Positions 28,708 through 43,103 of a DNA stretch of 64,000 nucleotides are shown here, piece after piece. The stretch comes from Spartobacteria bacterium (GTDB lineage: Bacteria; Verrucomicrobiota; Verrucomicrobiia; Chthoniobacterales; UBA10450): positions 578,391 through 642,390 of the forward strand of contig PMTM01000006.1 of the NCBI GenBank assembly GCA_003167365.1, in the 5' to 3' direction. Below the pieces are notes generated by a model. It was not told the DNA's origin and made no database searches. It saw nothing but the letters and a program-made list of their open reading frames with translations. Numbering within the stretch: the first letter of the stretch is position 1; the number at the start of each line of letters is the position of its first letter. The translations under genes were made by a program, and so were the position numbers.

Positions 28708-28895
28708 AGGTGACGAGGGATTCTACTCGCAAACGCAGGCTAACATGAGCTTTTTGGCAATGCAAAGAGCAGGAGCCACGCCTCCGAGCCAAGATCGACC
28801 TAAACACGATCGCCATGTTCAATCTCAAGCGATCCTCGTTCGCATCACTTTGCGTTAGTGCGCGATTACGGTAAAATTTGCGCCGAAACATCAAG

Positions 28896-31800
28896 ATGAC
28901 GGAATTGGTCACAACAGTCGCAGAGAAAATCGATCGCGCCGTGCAAAGGGTTACGCCGTTCGCATATCGCATACAGCGAAGAGGACGTCGCTTGATGCGC
29001 CGCGCCCTGCGCAAACCGCGCAGCGTTTCGGAAGGGCCGAACCTGCTGCCGCTGTTGATCCAGGTGTTGGCCAGTTTTTCGAAAGCCGACGGCGTGCTGC
29101 TGGAGGAAGAAATCGACTCGAGTCTTGGATTTTTGCGTTACGACTATCCGGAGACCGTTTATTCGGAGTTACGCCAACTTTTCCGTCAGGCGCTTTACGA
29201 GCAACAGGATCTCTCGGCCATGGCGCAAAAGCTCGGCGCGGAATTGAGTACCGAACGCAAGATCATGCTCGGAGTTCAGCTTTACGATTTGATCTCGCAA
29301 GCGGGCCTGAAACAAGAGCAGGTCGTCCAATTTTACTCGTTCATGTCGCAGCTCGGCATGGCGGCGCAAGCCATCGACATCGTTTATCAACTCAATGCGG
29401 CCGAAGATTCCGACCCGTCGGTTTATCAGCGCGGCGCTTCACCGCTCGAAGCGCTTTCTTTTGCCAACAACGCAAGAGGCGACGTGAAATTGAAGAGTCT
29501 TTCGGAAAACGAACGCCTGCTCGCGTTTCGCTATCACGAATTGATTTTGCTGAAGAATTACAGCAGTCAAAACGTGTCGGTCCGCGGCCGGCCATTGGTG
29601 CGCGGGGGCTTTTGCCGGATTTATCCGGGCCAGCGGATTTTGGTTGGCGACCATGTGCTGACTTATCAGGAGCTGGAGCAATATTTCAACGCGAAGAAGA
29701 ATGTCTCGTTGCCGCAAATTTTCATCCGGGTAAACCGGGACTCGGATGAAGTGGGACTGGAGCGTTCGCGTTCGCGCGAAAGTGCGCTGGAAATCACGTT
29801 TGGCTTGAAAGTACGCGTAAAAGCGTTGCGCGACGTCGATGCGGTCCTCAACAAAGTTAAATTGCGCGCTGGGACGCAAGTTGAAGCTGCGCTCGAAGAC
29901 CGGATCGTTTTTCACAACGACAGCGAGATGGATTTGATAGATTTGCGGCGCCGCGCGCGCGCGATGGGCGGCCGGTTCCAACTCAAAGCCTCGAAATCCG
30001 AGTACCTCGTTTCCAATAATCCGAGCTTGCTCGAAGCTGACGACATTCTGCTTTCGCCGGGCACGAGCGGCGACGTGCTGCTGAAGATTTTTTGCGATTA
30101 CGACAAACGTGTCGGCGAAATTCAAGTGATCGAAGCGGATCGGCCGATCATGGTGGGCGACGCGATCGTGCGCTCGAGTGCGCCGCTGAAGGACGGCGAT
30201 ACCATCCGAATCGACGTCGGACAATTTCTGCGCTGCAATTTTTCCGAACGAATCATCGAGGAAGAGCGCAACATCATTCGGACGCTCGACGCGAGCGAGA
30301 TCACGCACCGGTTCGGCAACGGCGAGATCGGGCTCGATGGAATTACATTTACGGTCAATCGCGGGGAACTCGTTTGCGTAATGGGCGCGAGCGGGTCCGG
30401 AAAGAGCACGCTACTCAAAGTGCTAGCCGGCCAGCTTGAGCCCAAAAGCGGGCAAGTCGTGCTCAACGGCCAATCGCTTTATCCGCATCTCGAAACGCTC
30501 AAGCGTTATATCAGTTACGTTCCGCAGGAGGACGCGTTTGACGAGCATCTAACGATTGGCGAAAACTTGCAGTTCGCAGCCGCGATTCGCTCGCCGCATC
30601 TTTCGCGGCGCGACCGAATGCGGCGACTGGAAGCGAAGCTGGTAGAACTTGGCTTGGGCGAACGTCGCGACGCTGTGGTCGGCAGCGCGGTGAAGAAGAC
30701 GTTGAGCGGCGGGGAGCGCAAACGGCTCAACATCGGCCTCGACATGATCGGCATGTCGGACGTTTACCTTTTCGACGAACCGACTTCCGGCCTTTCGTCG
30801 AAAGACTCCGAGCACGTGATCGAGATCATTCGTGGCATGGCGCACAACAAGATCGTCATCGTCACGATCCATCAGCCGAGCTCGAAATTGTTCCAGATGT
30901 TTCACAAAGCGATTCTGCTCGACAAGAGCGGGCGGCTCGTTTTCTTCGGCACGCCGTCGGACATGCTTCGTTATTTTGCCGAAGCGGAACATCAGCATCA
31001 ATTCGGCGCCGAGCTAGGCGCTTGTCCTTCCTGCGGCACGACGCGGCCGGAATTTATTTTCGATGTGCTGGAGACGCCGCTGCGCGACTTGAGCGGCGAC
31101 ATTATTTTCGAGGAAAATAGTCGCGGCCAACTCGTCGCCGCGCGCCGCTATTCGCCTGAGTTCTGGCGTGATAAATACGAGGCGTTCCGTTTGATTCAGG
31201 ACGTAAAGCAAGTCTCGCTGCGTAAAGAACCGGCGATACCGTTGCCGGCGGCGCCAACGCAAAAGAAACGCGAGCCGTTTCGTTGGCACGATGAGTGGAC
31301 GCAATTCCGCACGCTGCTGCGCCGCTCATTTATCAGCAAACTGCGCAATCGCGCGAATCTTGTCATTACGATTGGTGTGGCGCCGGTGCTGGCGCTGCTC
31401 ATCGCGACAATCCTGCGTTACTCCGATAGCGGGCAGTACGATTTCGCGTCGGCTTATCATATTCCCACGTATCTCTTCCTCAGTTTGATCGTGGCAATGT
31501 TCCTCGGACTGACCAATAGCGCTGACGACATCATTCGTGATCGCGTCGTCCTGCAACGGGAACGCAATCTTAACGTGCGTCTGCATTACTACGTGTTTTC
31601 AAAAACGATCACCCTCGGTATTTTCGCACTCGTCCAATGCTTCCTGTTCGTCTTGATCGGCAATTACGTCCTGCAGATTCGCGGAATGTTCTGGGTCGAT
31701 CTGGGCATCGTCTTCATGACGGCGATGGGCGGCGTGGCCCTGGGTTTGGTGATCTCGTCGCTCGTGGCCGATCCGAAAACGGCGGCGAACATCGTTCCGC

Positions 31801-32507
31801 TTGTGCTCATTCCACAGATCATCATGGGTGGAGCGTTGATCAAGTACGAGGACATGAATCGCAATCTCGCGCTCGTCTATGCGCTGACGCATTGGTTCCA
31901 CGAGCATCCAACCAGGGAGCTGGGGAAGAAGATGGACAGCAAGCTGCAGGTGCCGTTCGTCTGCCAGTTCATTGCGATGCGCTGGTCGTACGAAGAGATC
32001 GTCGTTGCGCAAGCAAAGCTTAATCCGCTGACTAGCCGGCAAGAGCGCGCCGATCGAGAGATTCGCCGGATCGTCGATCGCCACGACCAAACCTCTGAAG
32101 GGATTAAGCGACTGAATAATCTTAAAGAAATTTTGGCGATGCTTTCCGGCCTTGAAGCGCATTCGGTGCGAGAGCTCGATCACTACCTCGGCCTGATCGA
32201 TGGGATTTTGAATGGGAAGCGGCCGTTCGAGCGCGCCCTTTTCAAAGACGCGACCGGCGGCGTGACTGCGGAGCAGGTTTATGTAAACCAGAAAGTTTCC
32301 GATCTGATTTCAAATGCCGAGATGGAGCAAAGCGATTATCGTCGCGGAGGGAAACCGAATGTCTTCTTCGGCGCAGAAAAACGCTATCTCGGGATGAAAA
32401 TCAACGTGTTTGTCTTCAACACGATTGTGTTGATTGGGTCGGCGGTGGGCTTGCTCGGGTTGCTCCATTGGATTTTGCGCCGGCAACTGAAAGTACGGAG
32501 GAGTTGA
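28896..32507 (+). CDS. Very large ABC transporter half, ABCG-like, with TerB-like and FHA-like N-terminal regions
   Basis: 1203 aa from the ATG at 28896; an upstream TTG at 28878 is less likely. The N-terminus (about 50-170) resembles a TerB-type helical domain (LASFSKADGVLLEEEIDSS). About 300 residues of beta-rich text follow, with FHA/forkhead-like spacing but no clear signature. The ATPase has Walker A GASGSGKST near 500, signature LSGGERKR near 603 and Walker B LFDEPTSG near 628. A CPSCG pair follows near residue 710. The C-terminal ABC2 permease has six helices. The layout resembles eukaryotic ABCG half-transporters. The substrate is unknown. Confidence 0.85.
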   Translation: MTELVTTVAEKIDRAVQRVTPFAYRIQRRGRRLMRRALRKPRSVSEGPNLLPLLIQVLASFSKADGVLLEEEIDSSLGFLRYDYPETVYSELRQLFRQALYEQQDLSAMAQKLGAELSTERKIMLGVQLYDLISQAGLKQEQVVQFYSFMSQLGMAAQAIDIVYQLNAAEDSDPSVYQRGASPLEALSFANNARGDVKLKSLSENERLLAFRYHELILLKNYSSQNVSVRGRPLVRGGFCRIYPGQRILVGDHVLTYQELEQYFNAKKNVSLPQIFIRVNRDSDEVGLERSRSRESALEITFGLKVRVKALRDVDAVLNKVKLRAGTQVEAALEDRIVFHNDSEMDLIDLRRRARAMGGRFQLKASKSEYLVSNNPSLLEADDILLSPGTSGDVLLKIFCDYDKRVGEIQVIEADRPIMVGDAIVRSSAPLKDGDTIRIDVGQFLRCNFSERIIEEERNIIRTLDASEITHRFGNGEIGLDGITFTVNRGELVCVMGASGSGKSTLLKVLAGQLEPKSGQVVLNGQSLYPHLETLKRYISYVPQEDAFDEHLTIGENLQFAAAIRSPHLSRRDRMRRLEAKLVELGLGERRDAVVGSAVKKTLSGGERKRLNIGLDMIGMSDVYLFDEPTSGLSSKDSEHVIEIIRGMAHNKIVIVTIHQPSSKLFQMFHKAILLDKSGRLVFFGTPSDMLRYFAEAEHQHQFGAELGACPSCGTTRPEFIFDVLETPLRDLSGDIIFEENSRGQLVAARRYSPEFWRDKYEAFRLIQDVKQVSLRKEPAIPLPAAPTQKKREPFRWHDEWTQFRTLLRRSFISKLRNRANLVITIGVAPVLALLIATILRYSDSGQYDFASAYHIPTYLFLSLIVAMFLGLTNSADDIIRDRVVLQRERNLNVRLHYYVFSKTITLGIFALVQCFLFVLIGNYVLQIRGMFWVDLGIVFMTAMGGVALGLVISSLVADPKTAANIVPLVLIPQIIMGGALIKYEDMNRNLALVYALTHWFHEHPTRELGKKMDSKLQVPFVCQFIAMRWSYEEIVVAQAKLNPLTSRQERADREIRRIVDRHDQTSEGIKRLNNLKEILAMLSGLEAHSVRELDHYLGLIDGILNGKRPFERALFKDATGGVTAEQVYVNQKVSDLISNAEMEQSDYRRGGKPNVFFGAEKRYLGMKINVFVFNTIVLIGSAVGLLGLLHWILRRQLKVRRS

Positions 32508-33960: not shown

Positions 33961-34659
33961 ATGTTCTACCCATACGGATTTCTTGGCTCTAGCGGGCTGC
34001 TTTATCTAGGAATCCCATTAATCATCGGATTGTGGGCGCAATTTCGCGTCGGCAGTGCGTTTCGAAAATGGAGCGCGGTGCGCGCAAGCTCGAACATTAC
34101 CGGCGCGGAATGCGCCCGGGAGATTTTGCGCGCCGCACAGATCAACGACGTCGATGTTGTGGAAACGAACGATTTTCTCGGCGATCATTACGATCCAACG
34201 AAAAAGACGTTGTGTCTTTCGAGTAAGGTCTACAGCACACCGTCGGTGGCGGCACTCGGAATCGCCGCACACGAAACTGGGCATGCAATTCAACATGCCA
34301 AGGCCTACGCGCCACTCAAGGCGCGCATGGCGATCGTGCCGATGACAATGTTCGCATCGCAACTGCTGCCTTTTGTATTCATCGGCGGGTTTTTCTTTCA
34401 CATGACCGGCCTGATTACGCTCGGCATTTATTGCTATCTCATTTTGGCGGTTTTCCAGTTGATCACTCTCCCGGTGGAATTTGACGCCTCGCGACGCGCG
34501 AAAATTATTCTCCAACAAATGGGCATTGTGCAGCCGGGAGCAGAAGTGGCCGGGGTGAATAGCGTTCTCAACGCCGCCGCGCTTACTTACGTTGCCGCTT
34601 TCGTTGCGGCGCTGGGCAACTTGCTCTGGTTAATGTCGATGCGCGATCGGCGCAGTTAA
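33961..34659 (+). CDS. Membrane zinc metallopeptidase, YugP-like
   Basis: 232 aa with four or five hydrophobic helices. The zinc motif is HETGH (residues near 101-105, in AAHETGHAIQHAKAY). The third ligand is probably Glu in LPVEFDASRRA near residue 176. This matches the PF04298 family, represented by YugP of Bacillus, whose substrates are not established. It lies 113 bases before the sigma factor at 34772 and on the same strand, so it may share the operon and take part in the same envelope response, but that is context only. Confidence 0.88.
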   Translation: MFYPYGFLGSSGLLYLGIPLIIGLWAQFRVGSAFRKWSAVRASSNITGAECAREILRAAQINDVDVVETNDFLGDHYDPTKKTLCLSSKVYSTPSVAALGIAAHETGHAIQHAKAYAPLKARMAIVPMTMFASQLLPFVFIGGFFFHMTGLITLGIYCYLILAVFQLITLPVEFDASRRAKIILQQMGIVQPGAEVAGVNSVLNAAALTYVAAFVAALGNLLWLMSMRDRRS

Positions 34660-34771
34660 CTGTCGCCTGGTGAAGAAGATGAATCCGTCAATCGCTCTAC
34701 CGTCTCCTCGCCGAATAACGGATTTGTTGTCGTCCCCCCTCGAATCGCGTGTTAAGTCTAACCGCAAGGTA

Positions 34772-35368
34772 ATGGATCAGCCACGAACCGATGAAGATCA
34801 GCAGTTGGTGGCGCGCACACAATCAGGCGAGGCTGCGGCGTTCGATCAACTTGTCGTGAAATATACGCCCCGTCTTTACGGTCTCGTTTATAACATGACC
34901 TCGAACCATGAGGATACGAACGACCTTTTGCAGGACGTTTTTTCCAAAGCCTACAAAGCGATCCGCGGTTTTCGCGGTAAGTCGTCCTTTTACACTTGGA
35001 TCCACTCCATCGCGGTCAACATGACGTTGAATTTCCTCAAGAAACGCGGCCGCCGTTATCATCTTAGCCTGGACGATGTCGATGCCGGCGTGCAAAACGA
35101 CAAGGAATTCCTGGAATTGACCGCCAGCAGCAGTCCGGTGAGGGAAGCCGACCTCTCCGAGCTCCAAAAAAGGTTGAACGAGGCCATGATGAAATTGTCT
35201 GATGAACACAGAGCTGTGGTCACAATGTTTCATATTCAAGGAATGCCTCACGCCGAGATCAGTAAGATCTTGAGTGTTTCCGAGGGTACGGTACGTTCCC
35301 GGCTCTTTTACGCGAACCGGCAGTTGCAGAATTATCTGGACGAATTCCGAAAAAACCCCGTTGCTTAA
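34772..35368 (+). CDS. ECF sigma factor, RpoE-like
   Basis: 198 aa from the ATG at 34772, preceded by an AAGG ribosome-binding site; the frame is open 34 codons upstream but those residues are unlike the family. Region 2 has FDQLVVKYTPRLYGLVY and DTNDLLQDVF, and region 4 has HAEISKILSVSEGTVRSRLFYA. The gene is followed after 13 bases by an anti-sigma-like membrane protein and then a protease homologue, a standard RpoE-type arrangement. It probably directs an envelope stress response. Confidence 0.9.
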   Translation: MDQPRTDEDQQLVARTQSGEAAAFDQLVVKYTPRLYGLVYNMTSNHEDTNDLLQDVFSKAYKAIRGFRGKSSFYTWIHSIAVNMTLNFLKKRGRRYHLSLDDVDAGVQNDKEFLELTASSSPVREADLSELQKRLNEAMMKLSDEHRAVVTMFHIQGMPHAEISKILSVSEGTVRSRLFYANRQLQNYLDEFRKNPVA

Positions 35369-35381
35369 CCCCCGCGCTGAA

Positions 35382-35879
35382 ATGGACGAATCTAACGACA
35401 ACGAAATCGGGAAGCTTCTTCGGCTGAAACGCTACGAACAGCCGGCGCCGGGTTACTTCGAGAATTTCCTGCACGAGTTTCATCGCCGTCAGCGCGACGA
35501 ATTGCTGCGCGAGCCGCTCTGGAAAATCTGTCTGCAGCGCGCGCAGGATTTCATGTTCCGTTTGAATGTTCCCGCGCTGACGTCTTATCCGGTTGCTGCC
35601 GCTGCCGTGTTGGTCTGCGCGGCCATTATTTCGTTGAAGATTTATCAAGGACCGGAAACCACCACGAACGTTGCGGTGCAGAACCGGCAGACGTTTACCG
35701 CGCCGGCAAATGTCGAGGGAGAATGGACGCTGGCGTCGCCTGTGGCGACGCGAGTTTTTACCGCGCAGCCGATTCGTAAATTCAACGAAATCGCCCGCAC
35801 TCACCGGGCCACCACCGCGCCACCGCGCTACGTGCTCGATAGCGTTCCCGTGAGTTATGAGACAGCTTTCAGATTTTAG
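35382..35879 (+). CDS. Membrane-anchored anti-sigma factor-like protein
   Basis: 165 aa from the ATG at 35382. The N-terminal soluble part (DNEIGKLLRLKRYEQPAPGYFENFLHEF) has the PGYFENF motif I often see in Verrucomicrobia and Planctomycetes proteins encoded next to ECF factors. One membrane helix is at about residues 70-87 (PVAAAAVLVCAAIISLKI). The remaining 75 residues should be periplasmic. Its position directly after the sigma gene supports an anti-sigma role. Binding is inferred, since no zinc-binding HX3CX2C motif is present. It overlaps the next gene by 23 bases. Confidence 0.75.
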   Translation: MDESNDNEIGKLLRLKRYEQPAPGYFENFLHEFHRRQRDELLREPLWKICLQRAQDFMFRLNVPALTSYPVAAAAVLVCAAIISLKIYQGPETTTNVAVQNRQTFTAPANVEGEWTLASPVATRVFTAQPIRKFNEIARTHRATTAPPRYVLDSVPVSYETAFRF

Positions 35880-36942
35880 CTCCGTCCCGGGATTTCCTCG
35901 GTCAGTTGCGGTGTCCGGGCTCGCTTTCGCGTTGAGTCTTTTCGCGGCCGTCAGTTGTTCGCGCGCGCAGGAACAGTCGGCCACGTCAATCAGTCGCGAG
36001 GTCAAAGATGTTTTTGAGCGGGCCGCAAAAGCCGTCGTGAAAATTCACGGTGCTGATGAACATAGTGAATTTTTTGGCACTGGTTTCTTTGTCGATCCAA
36101 CCGGCACGCTTTACACGTCATATACCGTCGGCGGCGAGGAGGGAAATTTCACGATTGAGTACGAAGGAAAAAAATATCCCGCGCGGCAGATTTTGGCCGA
36201 TGTGCGCAGTGGCCTGGCCATGTTGAAGGCCGATCTAGCTACGCCAACCTTGCCGATCGCAAAATCGGGGCAGCTTGAAGTCGCTACGCCGGTCATCACC
36301 ATCGGGTTTCCTCTCGATCTTCCCGAAACTCCCAGCTTCGGTATGATCGCCGGGTTTGATCGCAAATACCTCGGCCGTTATTTTTCGACGACACATCTGC
36401 GCGTCAACCTGCCGACGCAGCGGGGCGAAGCCGGCGCGCCACTTTTGAATTTGAAAGGCGAAGTCGTCGGTATTCTGGTCAGCAGCTTGGAAAACAATTC
36501 CTCTTGTTATGCTCTGCCAATTGATGCCGCGGAAAAAATCCGCGGTGATTATGTCCGTTTCGGCGAAGCACGGCATGGCTGGATCGGCGCGAGTGTCGGG
36601 TCTGCGGAAGCACCAGTGGAAGGCTCGAGCGCGGAAATTACTGAGCTTCTCGGAATTGCCCCCGCGACCGATTCCGGAATGAGGCCGGGCGATATTCTTT
36701 TACAGGTGGGTAAAGTAAAAGTGCGCGAACCCGAAGATGTTTTGGACGCTTCCTTCTTCATCACCGCTGGCGACACGATCCCAATCACGGTCATGCGGGG
36801 CAAAGAAAAACTTACCTTCAATATTCAGGCCGACTTTCATCCGGGAGCTAACCAGCTACCGATGATCGTTTCTCCCTCCTCGCCCAACCGCGCGAACGCG
36901 ATTCCTTTGAATTTGCAACCGGGATCAAACCGAACGCCCTAG
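35857..36942 (+). CDS. HtrA-like protein with all three catalytic residues replaced, plus PDZ domain
   Basis: 361 aa. A signal region (SGLAFALSLFAAVSC, with SRAQ after it) precedes a trypsin-like domain of S1C type and a C-terminal PDZ domain (SGMRPGDILLQVGKVKV). Aligning with active HtrA proteins, the catalytic His is Y89 (GTLYTSYTVGG), the Asp is G119 (RSGLAMLK) and the Ser is A192 (GEAGAP). It should not cleave peptides, so a binding or regulatory role is likely. The gene is third in the sigma / anti-sigma operon. An active HtrA is encoded at 41607-43103 and keeps the full triad. Confidence 0.85.
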   Translation: MRQLSDFSSVPGFPRSVAVSGLAFALSLFAAVSCSRAQEQSATSISREVKDVFERAAKAVVKIHGADEHSEFFGTGFFVDPTGTLYTSYTVGGEEGNFTIEYEGKKYPARQILADVRSGLAMLKADLATPTLPIAKSGQLEVATPVITIGFPLDLPETPSFGMIAGFDRKYLGRYFSTTHLRVNLPTQRGEAGAPLLNLKGEVVGILVSSLENNSSCYALPIDAAEKIRGDYVRFGEARHGWIGASVGSAEAPVEGSSAEITELLGIAPATDSGMRPGDILLQVGKVKVREPEDVLDASFFITAGDTIPITVMRGKEKLTFNIQADFHPGANQLPMIVSPSSPNRANAIPLNLQPGSNRTP

Positions 36943-39347: not shown

Positions 39348-41099
39348 GTGAAACCCGGCGAGAAAATTCTCGGGGTGGAAGGCGGTGGAACCAAGACCGC
39401 CTGGGTCTTGGCGGATCGCGAAGGCGAGGAACTGCAAATCGTCGATCAGGGGAGACTTCCGGCCGCAAATTTCCGTTTGGCTACGCCGGAACGTTTGCGC
39501 ACAATTTTTCTCGAACTCCCGAAGGAGGTTGATCGCGCCGGAGTTTTTCTGGCCGGCTGCGGCACGGCCGCAGATAGACAATCACTCGCGCGACTCTGCG
39601 CGGAGATTTGGCCGACGGCGAAAATCATTACCGGAAGCGACCGCGATTCCGGTCTCGCCGCTGCGCTTGGTCATGCGGATGGAATTGCCGTGAATGCCGG
39701 CAGCGGCTCTTCCGTTACGGGAAGACGGGGCGACAAGATCGAGAACGCCGGAGGATGGGGACACATCTTGGGCGACGCGGGCGGCGGTTACTTTCTTTCC
39801 ATTCAAGCGCTGCGGTTGATTCTGCGCGAATACGATCTGCATCGGGGCGAAGTGCAGTTCACCGCGAGAGTTTTGCACGCGCTCTCTTTAAATACGCTCG
39901 ACGAACTTGTGCGCTGGGCTCAGATCGCGGACAAAATGGAGGTCGCGACGTTGGCGCCCGTTGTCTTCGAAGCCGCCGCGAATGGCGACGCGCGCGTCAT
40001 GGAGATCATCGAAGAAGGCGCGCAAGTTCTAACCGAATACACCGAGGCAGTGGCGACGCGTCTCCATCTGCTCGCGCCGAAAGTGATATTGCTGGGCGGA
40101 TTGTTTCATCGCGATTCAATCTACACGCACGCGTTTCGGCGGAGGCTTAAGAAGAATCTTCCCGATGCGCGCGTCGCGACTGCCGACAAATCTCCCGAGT
40201 TCGGCGCGGCGTTGCTTGCGGCGGAGATGGATGAACATGCGATTTTTCGAGCGGGGACTAGCGACGACAAGATTGACAATCTCGCTGCCGCGTTAACCGA
40301 GCAGCGTAACCCGCGGTCGGAAAATTTAGAAAAACTGAGCGCACGAAAGTTGGTCGAGCTTTTTGTTGAGGAAGAAAAATTTGTGCAAGAAGCATTGCGC
40401 GGAGCGATTGGCGATCTTGCCAAAGCGGTCGAGATCGTTTCGCATTCTTTGCGCAAAGGCGGCCGTTTGTTTTATGTGGGCGCCGGAACGAGTGGACGGC
40501 TCGGCGCTCTCGATGCGAGCGAAATCCCGCCGACTTTTGGCGCGTCAGCCGAGCTTGTTCAAGGTATCATCGCCGGCGGCGCGACCGCGCTTTCACGAAG
40601 TGTCGAAGGTGCCGAGGACGAAGAAAATAACGGCGCGCTGGCAGCCGATGAGCGGGGAATAAAGGATCGCGATGTCGTAATCGGGATCACGGCGAGTGGG
40701 CGAACGCCATTTGTCCTCGGGGCACTGGCGCGGGCGAAGTCGCTGAGAGCAAGAACGATTTTGCTGACGTGTAACCCGGCTCGATCGCAAAACATACACG
40801 CCGACCTTGCGATCGATCTCGCGACCGGGCCGGAAATTCTTACTGGATCGACCAGGTTAAAAGCGGGAACAGCGACAAAAGTCGCGCTCAATATTATCAG
40901 CACCGGCGCGATGGTCGCTTTGGGAAAAGTGCGCGGTAATTCGATGATCGATTTACAAATCATGAGCACGAAACTCCGTGATCGCGCTGTTCGTCTCGTC
41001 TTGGAGATCACCGGTAGCGATTACGCAACCGCGCAAAAGAAATTGGAGGCGAACAATTGGAAGCTACGCGCCGCTGTCGATTCGCCGAGCTCCAATTGA
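39348..41099 (+). CDS. murQ: Fusion of a BadF/NagK-type sugar kinase with N-acetylmuramic acid 6-phosphate etherase
   Basis: 583 aa, GTG start. Residues 1-295 are an ASKHA kinase of the BadF/BcrAD family: phosphate loop VEGGGTKTAW, GSDRDSG near 96-102 and GSGSSVTGR near 118-126. Residues 305-583 are a complete MurQ with GTSGRLGALDASE (catalytic Glu equivalent in SEIPP) and EGAEDEE, followed by an SIS sugar-binding fold (GITASGRTPF). The two would phosphorylate MurNAc (or GlcNAc) and then split the lactyl ether of MurNAc-6-phosphate to GlcNAc-6-phosphate, feeding NagA (9500-10657). The kinase substrate is inferred from the fusion. Confidence 0.9.
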   Translation: MKPGEKILGVEGGGTKTAWVLADREGEELQIVDQGRLPAANFRLATPERLRTIFLELPKEVDRAGVFLAGCGTAADRQSLARLCAEIWPTAKIITGSDRDSGLAAALGHADGIAVNAGSGSSVTGRRGDKIENAGGWGHILGDAGGGYFLSIQALRLILREYDLHRGEVQFTARVLHALSLNTLDELVRWAQIADKMEVATLAPVVFEAAANGDARVMEIIEEGAQVLTEYTEAVATRLHLLAPKVILLGGLFHRDSIYTHAFRRRLKKNLPDARVATADKSPEFGAALLAAEMDEHAIFRAGTSDDKIDNLAAALTEQRNPRSENLEKLSARKLVELFVEEEKFVQEALRGAIGDLAKAVEIVSHSLRKGGRLFYVGAGTSGRLGALDASEIPPTFGASAELVQGIIAGGATALSRSVEGAEDEENNGALAADERGIKDRDVVIGITASGRTPFVLGALARAKSLRARTILLTCNPARSQNIHADLAIDLATGPEILTGSTRLKAGTATKVALNIISTGAMVALGKVRGNSMIDLQIMSTKLRDRAVRLVLEITGSDYATAQKKLEANNWKLRAAVDSPSSN

Positions 41100-41606: not shown

Positions 41607-43103
41607 TTAACCGCCCGACTTGAGAACGGCGAAGGTCTTGCTGCCTTTGCGGTCGAGATAGAGGAGCACGCCGCGCTTTGGGTCGGCTTTTTTGAGCGCT
41701 TCGCGGAACGATTGGACGTTGGGAACCGATTTGCCGTCCACTTCGGTGATTACGTCTTCGCGCTCGATGCCCTGTTGCGCGGCGAGGCTGTCCTCAGCCA
41801 CGTCGGTGACGATAACGCCTTGTTTGATGTCGAGATGGAGGCGTTCGGCCACTTCCTTGGTTAGATCCTGCACTTGCAATCCGAACTTGCCGACATCTTC
41901 CGGCTTGGAGCCTGGTTGCACCGGCTCGTTGGAGGCGCGCGAGATTTCATTCGGCAATTCGCCCGTCTTCACTGGAATCTTGATCGTCTGACCCTTCCGC
42001 CAAACGGTCAGCTCAATGCTTTGTCCGATCTTCTTTTTCAGAATTTCGTGTTGCAGTTGGGAGTCGCTGGCGACCTGCGCTCCATCGACCTGGGTGATTA
42101 CGTCGAACGGCCGAAGATCGCTTTTGTAAGCCGGCGCGTCCGCTTCAATCGTGCGTACGACGACGCCTTTATCGAGCCCTTTGAACAAATCGCGGATCGA
42201 CGGATCGTCACCGAGCGTTTCAATGCGAATGCCGAGCCACGGCCGCATGATCTTGTGGCCGGCGATAAGCTCGCCCCCAATCTCCTTTGCCATGTTGCTC
42301 GGGATGGCAAAACCGAGTCCGCGATTCAATCCGTTGATCAGTGTGTTCATGCCGATGACATTGCCGTCGATGTCGCAGAGCGGGCCGCCGCTGTTTCCCG
42401 GATTGATTGATGCGTCGGTCTGGATGTAATCCGAAATGGCATAGCCGTTGGTCGGAATCAGTTTGTTGCGGCCTTTGCCGCTGATCACGCCGTAAGTGAA
42501 CGTGTAGTCGAGTTTGAACGGCGCGCCGATCGCAAACGCGAACTGTCCCACGCGCACCGCGTCGCTGTCTCCAAGTTGCACGACCGGGAGATCTTTCGCG
42601 TCGATCTTGATGACCGCGATGTCGGTCTTTTCATCTGTCCCGACGGTCTTGGCTTGAAATTCGCGGCCGTCCTTCAATTTCACGCTGATCTTGTCGGCCC
42701 CCTCCACGACGTGAAAATTCGTAAAAATGTAGCCATCGGGCCGAACGATGAAGCCCGAGCCCTCGCTTTGCACAGGTTGGGGCCGGCGCAAATTTCCGTG
42801 TGGGTTGTTTTCATCCGGCGGACCTTGAAAAAATAAATCGTCAAAAGCCGAACCTTCCGCGCCGTCGCTTTTCTTGGAAATTTCGATGATGACGACGCTG
42901 GGGGCCACGATCTCAAAAACCTTTGCGAACGCGTTGTTAAGCTGGTGAACGACGTCCTTGCCCGCTTCGGCCGCCGCGGCGGGAACGGTTGACGTCGCTT
43001 CCGGCTGGCCCGCCGGTGACGCGGCTAAGATCGACAGCGTGCTCAGGGCGGAAATTAAGATTGAGATCGGTAATGAGCGCATTAGTTGGAACTTGGACAG
43101 CAT
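41607..43103 (-). CDS. HtrA/DegP family serine protease
   Basis: 498 aa; an internal ATG at codon 8 may be the true start, giving signal peptide LPISILISALSTLSILAA. The protease domain keeps H131 (FTNFHVV), D161 (TDIAVIK) and S238 (GNSGGP). Two PDZ domains follow (from about residue 290 and 405; the second begins EVAERLHLDIKQGV). It is a periplasmic protease and chaperone, probably responding to misfolded envelope proteins. Compare with the dead homologue at 35857-36942. Confidence 0.93.
   Translation of the reverse strand: MLSKFQLMRSLPISILISALSTLSILAASPAGQPEATSTVPAAAAEAGKDVVHQLNNAFAKVFEIVAPSVVIIEISKKSDGAEGSAFDDLFFQGPPDENNPHGNLRRPQPVQSEGSGFIVRPDGYIFTNFHVVEGADKISVKLKDGREFQAKTVGTDEKTDIAVIKIDAKDLPVVQLGDSDAVRVGQFAFAIGAPFKLDYTFTYGVISGKGRNKLIPTNGYAISDYIQTDASINPGNSGGPLCDIDGNVIGMNTLINGLNRGLGFAIPSNMAKEIGGELIAGHKIMRPWLGIRIETLGDDPSIRDLFKGLDKGVVVRTIEADAPAYKSDLRPFDVITQVDGAQVASDSQLQHEILKKKIGQSIELTVWRKGQTIKIPVKTGELPNEISRASNEPVQPGSKPEDVGKFGLQVQDLTKEVAERLHLDIKQGVIVTDVAEDSLAAQQGIEREDVITEVDGKSVPNVQSFREALKKADPKRGVLLYLDRKGSKTFAVLKSGG

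Follow-up and report, generated by a model that had tools for sequence, protein, structure and literature searches.

What does an HtrA protein do when it is encoded in a sigma factor operon and has lost the residues with which it would cut? In the RpoE and AlgU pathways the site-1 proteases are DegS and AlgW, and DegS is the textbook example: its PDZ domain perceives a signal of unfolded proteins, and the response is proteolysis of an anti-sigma factor. In the window, by which we mean the whole stretch of 64,000 nucleotides analysed here, an HtrA-like gene follows the genes for an RpoE-like sigma factor and for a putative anti-sigma factor (Table 1). We consider it an evenly balanced proposition that the product of this gene, an ancient catalytically dead HtrA, serves to bind the anti-sigma factor of the preceding gene. 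By sequence, the case for the pseudoprotease and its operon is strong, and that for a link between the tail of the anti-sigma factor and the PDZ domain of the pseudo-HtrA is moderate.

Table 1. Features of the pseudo-HtrA operon and its surroundings, numbered along the window.
Feature	Position	Strand	Basis or remark
Membrane zinc metallopeptidase, Zn_peptidase_2	33961..34659	+	Pfam 1.4e-79; synteny; immediately precedes the sigma gene
ECF sigma factor gene, RpoE-like	34772..35368	+	Pfam Sigma70_r2 1.2e-16, r4_2 1.4e-12; NCBIfam sigma70-ECF over cut-off
Putative anti-sigma factor	35382..35879	+	Flanked by sigma and HtrA genes in the class; AlphaFold2 model
Conserved C-terminal anti-sigma tail, PPRYVLDSVPVSYETAFRF-COOH	35820..35876	+	Alignment; terminal Phe codon 35874-35876
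Gene overlap, HtrA start codon within the last anti-sigma codons	35857..35879	+	Relatives' loci
HtrA pseudoprotease with putative secretion signal, trypsin-fold domain and a single PDZ domain	35857..36942	+	Pfam, AlphaFold2, structural alignment
Catalytic His position, here Thr90	36124..36126	+	Alignment with intact HtrA and homologues
Asp115, four residues before the lost catalytic Asp	36199..36201	+	Position of AlgW D149; kept in 109/112 homologues with a residue there
Catalytic Asp position, here Gly119	36211..36213	+	Alignment with intact HtrA and homologues
Catalytic Ser position, here Ala192	36430..36432	+	Alignment with intact HtrA and homologues
PDZ ligand-binding motif W242-I243-G244	36580..36588	+	Homologue alignment; equals AlgW W281-L282-G283
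Paralogous HtrA, intact triad, two PDZ domains	41607..43103	-	Pfam, NCBIfam, alignment; outside the operon, for comparison only

A conserved operon of sigma factor, putative anti-sigma factor and pseudo-HtrA

The initial annotation of this DNA had proposed a search for orthologues in the same operon, and such a search found the order ECF sigma factor, small membrane protein (the putative anti-sigma factor) and pseudo-HtrA conserved through the class. The gene order is kept across the families of the same taxonomic order and in other orders, with a single member beyond the class (G231, L266), and nearly all homologues of the pseudo-HtrA sit in an operon of this kind. The first protein is made up of Sigma70 region 2 and region 4 only, which is the composition that defines an ECF sigma factor. 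The middle gene had been placed correctly by the initial annotation, at 35382-35879, and it overlaps the HtrA gene by 23 bases. For the family of its product we found no relative in Pfam or the PDB, and Foldseek with the low-confidence model of the protein gave no match. In this AlphaFold2 model residues 3-60 form helices and residues 69-89 a transmembrane helix, the rest being disordered, so that the protein can be divided into a cytoplasmic helical domain (residues 1-60), the transmembrane helix, a disordered linker (90-146) and a tail (147-165). A place beside a sigma gene, N-terminal cytoplasmic helices and one transmembrane helix are the layout of class I anti-sigma factors, and by position and topology we regard the middle protein as a putative anti-sigma factor.

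The start codon of HtrA precedes the anti-sigma stop by 20 bases, which suggests that translation of the two genes is probably coupled. About 60 of the 77 named relatives share this 20-base overlap together with the stop codon; these relatives belong to the Verrucomicrobia, being of the Chthoniobacterales / Spartobacteria kind, Candidatus Udaeobacter and Chthoniobacter. The zinc metallopeptidase gene is conserved as a neighbour in the window's family and, beyond it, only at one locus of another family (L035); it was not seen at the other order-level loci and does not belong to the core of the operon. The genome also encodes intact HtrAs and an M50 site-2 protease, and a genome-wide search for RseB (PF03888) gave nothing over the cut-off, its best result being a sub-threshold match of 21.1 bits. 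A partly conserved block, 34720-34771(+), with the consensus gattTgtt.tCgtc, lies just upstream of the sigma start and may be an autoregulated promoter.

Ancient loss of the catalytic triad

The fold motifs and the PDZ domain of an HtrA are kept in the third protein, as had been noted from the start. Its 361 residues include a Trypsin_2 domain at 74-206 (E 1.6e-15) and a PDZ_2 domain at 266-323 (1.6e-7), both over the Pfam cut-offs, and structural alignment matched its AlphaFold2 model (pLDDT 84.5, 48 sequences) with DegP, DegQ, DegS and AlgW at Z 26-33, mostly over 280-300 residues; DegS crystals with the peptides YQF and YRF matched at Z 28. DegS has an uncleaved N-terminal membrane anchor; in the pseudo-HtrA a hydrophobic segment at residues ~15-33, which may be either an anchor or a cleaved signal, is followed in several orthologues by an ARA-Q/E-like cleavage site. 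The order of the domains, trypsin-like and then PDZ, is that of the HtrA / Do-like family (S1C), and the His-Asp-Ser triad of this family is missing. Judged by these features of its sequence, the protein is a pseudoprotease derived from the S1C family and not an HtrA protease. It stays below the NCBIfam equivalog cut-offs for DegS (TIGR02038, 68.3 bits against 422.95; NF008147, 79 against 408) and far below the cut-off for MamO (NF040961, 23.5 bits against 800), and Pfam matches HtrA domains only, the RseB/MucB domain PF03888 being absent.

We read the triad positions against H131, D161 and S238 of the intact HtrA encoded in the same window, at 41607-43103(-). The initial annotation had reported that all three catalytic residues are changed, and this stands, with Asp replaced by G119 and Ser by A192 as it had stated; the His, however, aligns with T90 and not with Y89, as it had supposed (TNFHVV in the intact HtrA, TSYTVG in the pseudo-HtrA). 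With T90, G119 and A192 at the triad positions the catalytic mechanism of HtrA is, on the alignment, ruled out, in agreement with the prediction that this homologue cannot cut.

The loss is widely shared. Among 118 distinct homologues, almost all of them from the same class, the catalytic His and the catalytic Asp are kept in none and the Ser in 7; at the His position 8 rows, and at the Asp position 6, have nothing that can be aligned. All 50 order-level loci lack the triad, the change of Asp to Gly being invariant among them, and it is absent as well from the operon loci fetched from other orders of the class; L215 and L216 keep it, but these are paralogues outside the operon. HtrA-family matches were present in 58/58 genomes of the first search, with clear orthologues (E 1e-59 or better) in most of these genomes and across most families of the order, and in the class as a whole 91 of 188 genomes have a clear homologue (matches of at least 180 bits). 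Low-scoring homologues adjoin an anti-sigma gene in further lineages, including Akkermansia-like genomes, and are without catalytic residues wherever these can be aligned.

The replacement of all three catalytic residues could, taken by itself, reflect recent decay or a pseudogene, and operon orthologues that keep the triad had been named as the sign of this; among the 118 homologues there is none with the full triad. In a tree built after removal of the triad columns, 31 pseudo-HtrAs split from 20 active-type HtrAs with a support of 100/100. Of these 20 paralogues, 18 have the full set of H, D and S; the remaining 2 have H and S, with E in place of D. The loss is more than chance, since it is seen in all 118 homologues while the paralogues in the tree keep the triad or nearly so. 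Between close pairs the pseudo-HtrA and the anti-sigma factor both have a median dN/dS of 0.10, as compared with 0.02 in the sigma factor. Taken together, the shared loss with a single origin, the 100/100 clade, the dN/dS of ~0.10 and the intact frames rule out recent decay, to which we assign a negligible probability. These comparisons indicate that the pseudo-HtrA is under purifying selection, and that loss of the triad was a single event which preceded the diversification of the class.

The tail of the anti-sigma factor and the PDZ motif

If the pseudo-HtrA binds the anti-sigma factor, the C-terminus of the latter is the candidate site. The last 19 residues form a conserved tail with the consensus RYVLDSxPVSYExxFxF-COOH, which exceeds a PDZ ligand in length. 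Across the order the mean share of the commonest residue is 0.75 in this tail, as compared with 0.40 in the linker (90-146) and 0.72 in the cytoplasmic domain. The last residue is Phe in 48/48 anti-sigma factors within the order, and at the 113 loci of the class with an HtrA gene it is F in 103, Y in 8 and M in 2, the third-last residue being hydrophobic in about 97 of the 113. Conservation of the Tyr-Glu pair in the tail may be partly due to the overlapping gene, as the ATG of HtrA sits there. As the sole cause of the terminal Phe, the overlap was considered and rejected, given the non-overlapping loci L120, L124, L125 and L127 and one genome (L175/L279) in which the HtrA gene is unlinked; there the tail still ends in YVAF, so the overlap is not the reason for the Phe.

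On the side of the pseudo-HtrA, the PDZ motif is well kept among the 118 homologues (W in 108, G in 116). By sequence it has the Y/W-x-G form which in DegS serves ligands with a C-terminal Phe, and its AlgW equivalent, W281-L282-G283, lines the peptide site (PMC8545111). The PDZ domains of DegS and AlgW recognise YxF and WVF C-termini, with positions 0 and -2 decisive, and AlgW D149, the counterpart of Asp115, is an interdomain contact (PMC8545111). Six outer membrane proteins (OMPs) were found in the genome to which the window belongs, and the last residue of each is Phe (GYQF, GFAF, WADF, KLRF, NKKF, AYDF); among these ends are that of a BamA-like protein (FNVGYQF) and that of a TonB receptor (GMKLRF). 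The published pattern for OMP C-termini (PMC3582582) fits only 39 of the 113 anti-sigma tails, so that the OMP likeness rests on the last three residues. When PDZ columns were ranked by covariation with the terminal residue of the tail, W242 came fifth of 53, but columns of the protease domain rank as high. The kept PDZ motif and the OMP-like end of the anti-sigma factor are compatible with PDZ binding and with a non-proteolytic control by the pseudo-HtrA, both of which the initial annotation had proposed.

A possible binding switch

We hypothesise that in the periplasm the anti-sigma tail would dock into the PDZ domain of the pseudo-HtrA, perhaps with its upstream part, RYVLD..PVS, running along the dead protease domain, and that docking would keep the anti-sigma factor holding sigma or shielded from proteases. 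The Phe-ending C-termini of mislocalised OMPs would compete for the PDZ domain and free the tail, and the freed anti-sigma factor would release sigma, either directly or after cutting by other proteases, for example the M50 site-2 protease. Of the two halves of DegS, OMP sensing would in this way survive, and competition would take the place of cutting. Direct binding of the tail by the PDZ domain, as the core function, is a claim on which our confidence is about equally divided. Competition by OMPs as the signal is put forward more tentatively, and equally tentative is the wider idea that the class could sense OMP misassembly without site-1 proteolysis by this HtrA, with ligand mimicry in place of cutting.

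The evidence on tail and PDZ domain would also fit a pseudo-HtrA that binds the tail, or co-oligomerises with an intact HtrA, and delivers the anti-sigma factor for cutting. HtrAs form trimers, and intact HtrAs are encoded in the same genome, one of them 5 kb away. A dead HtrA needed for an active one has a precedent in MamO (PMC4794232). However, no intact HtrA is constant in the operon, and the pseudo-HtrA and active-type clades are deeply separate, and we regard delivery for cutting as unlikely.

Loci without the HtrA gene

Some lineages have the sigma and anti-sigma genes and no HtrA gene behind them. The anti-sigma factor ends in F or Y at 112 of 114 loci with the HtrA gene (one locus counted twice, 113 being distinct) and at 9 of 29 loci without it, for which p is 1.5e-15, uncorrected for phylogeny. 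On the sigma tree the HtrA gene was lost five times independently, and the aromatic end was lost in two of these cases and kept in three. Once phylogeny is corrected for, the association between a Phe end and the presence of HtrA comes down to 5 independent pairs, at most 2 of them concordant and 0 opposite, and is not significant. The aromatic end and the HtrA gene were both lost in a six-genome clade and in a 14-genome clade, with one Tyr exception, and anti-sigma factors there end mostly in R, Q, P, E, H or N.

The F end is retained in three lineages without the pseudo-HtrA gene (L240/L241/L264; L249/L250/L260/L261; L238), which would be in keeping with a tail that is a degron for an active protease, either of the Tsp/Prc type or an intact HtrA, with the pseudo-HtrA only shielding it or being unrelated to it. 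Set against this are the two larger lineages that lost the aromatic end along with the HtrA gene, and the fact that the PDZ motif of the pseudo-HtrA is kept, and we hold such a degron to be quite unlikely. The same losses bear on a role apart from the anti-sigma factor. HtrA-fold proteins can serve as chaperones, and the dead HtrA might be a sigma-induced periplasmic holdase that makes no contact with the anti-sigma factor, in which case autoregulation would account for the operon position alone. Against this possibility speak the constant place beside the anti-sigma gene, the gene overlap and, in two clades, the joint loss of HtrA gene and tail, and we judge it quite unlikely too.

At L249, L250, L260 and L261 the anti-sigma-like proteins are long (~320 aa) and end in KF, with no HtrA gene nearby. 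At L243 and L247, which are Akkermansia-like, a very divergent PDZ protein of ~294 aa is encoded behind the sigma and anti-sigma genes; its protease part is below Pfam detection, the W of the PDZ motif is replaced, and the anti-sigma factor ends in Met, not Phe.

Comparison with known systems

A pseudo-HtrA that holds the anti-sigma tail by its PDZ domain, the reading that we prefer, would share features with several known systems. Like DegS and AlgW, the protein combines a trypsin fold with a single PDZ domain, a W/Y-x-G ligand motif and a candidate ligand class with a Phe end, and it is tied to an RpoE-like ECF sigma factor and an anti-sigma factor with a single transmembrane segment; unlike them, it has no catalytic residue, its gene lies inside the sigma operon, and the Phe-ended ligand-like tail is found on the anti-sigma factor itself. 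MucE and the OMP C-termini that activate AlgW and DegS also present a short hydrophobic-x-Phe C-terminus as PDZ ligand, whereas here it is the anti-sigma factor that carries this end. The proposed role resembles that of RseB and MucB, as a non-enzymatic periplasmic partner that would keep the anti-sigma factor off, with signal-dependent release, and the pseudo-HtrA is likewise encoded by the third gene of the operon, but the folds are unrelated.

The magnetosome protein MamO is likewise derived from HtrA, has lost catalysis and is kept for another job. It retains His and Asp with Thr for Ser, binds metal, belongs to a biomineralisation cluster and promotes MamE-dependent proteolysis (PMC4794232), whereas the pseudo-HtrA has lost all three residues of the triad and stands in a sigma operon. 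HtrA pseudoproteases are thus already known (MamO, PMC4794232), as are HtrA proteases that act on anti-sigma factors. The literature library searched, which does not include subscription papers, contained no dead HtrA in a sigma operon and no such system in Verrucomicrobia or Akkermansia; what appears new, being absent from that library, is the class-wide pairing of a dead HtrA with an anti-sigma factor whose tail resembles a DegS-type ligand. If our proposal is true, sensing has been separated from cutting, and a protease cascade can turn into a binding switch. It offers a concrete, testable model of envelope stress control for Verrucomicrobia, including soil relatives of Udaeobacter and Chthoniobacter, with divergent forms of the system in lineages resembling methanotrophs and Akkermansia.

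Other genes in the window

Two further genes of the window have unusual domain combinations. In the 583-aa open reading frame at 39348-41099(+), residues 8-291 form a BadF/BcrA-type kinase domain, which is fused to a GKRP/MurQ-type SIS domain (~355-503) and a UBA-like end, and the product is perhaps a bifunctional amino-sugar kinase / MurNAc-6-P etherase. At 28878-32507(+) a 1209-aa ABC transporter with a fused ABC2 membrane part is encoded, the long N-terminal region of which has a weak TerB-like match.
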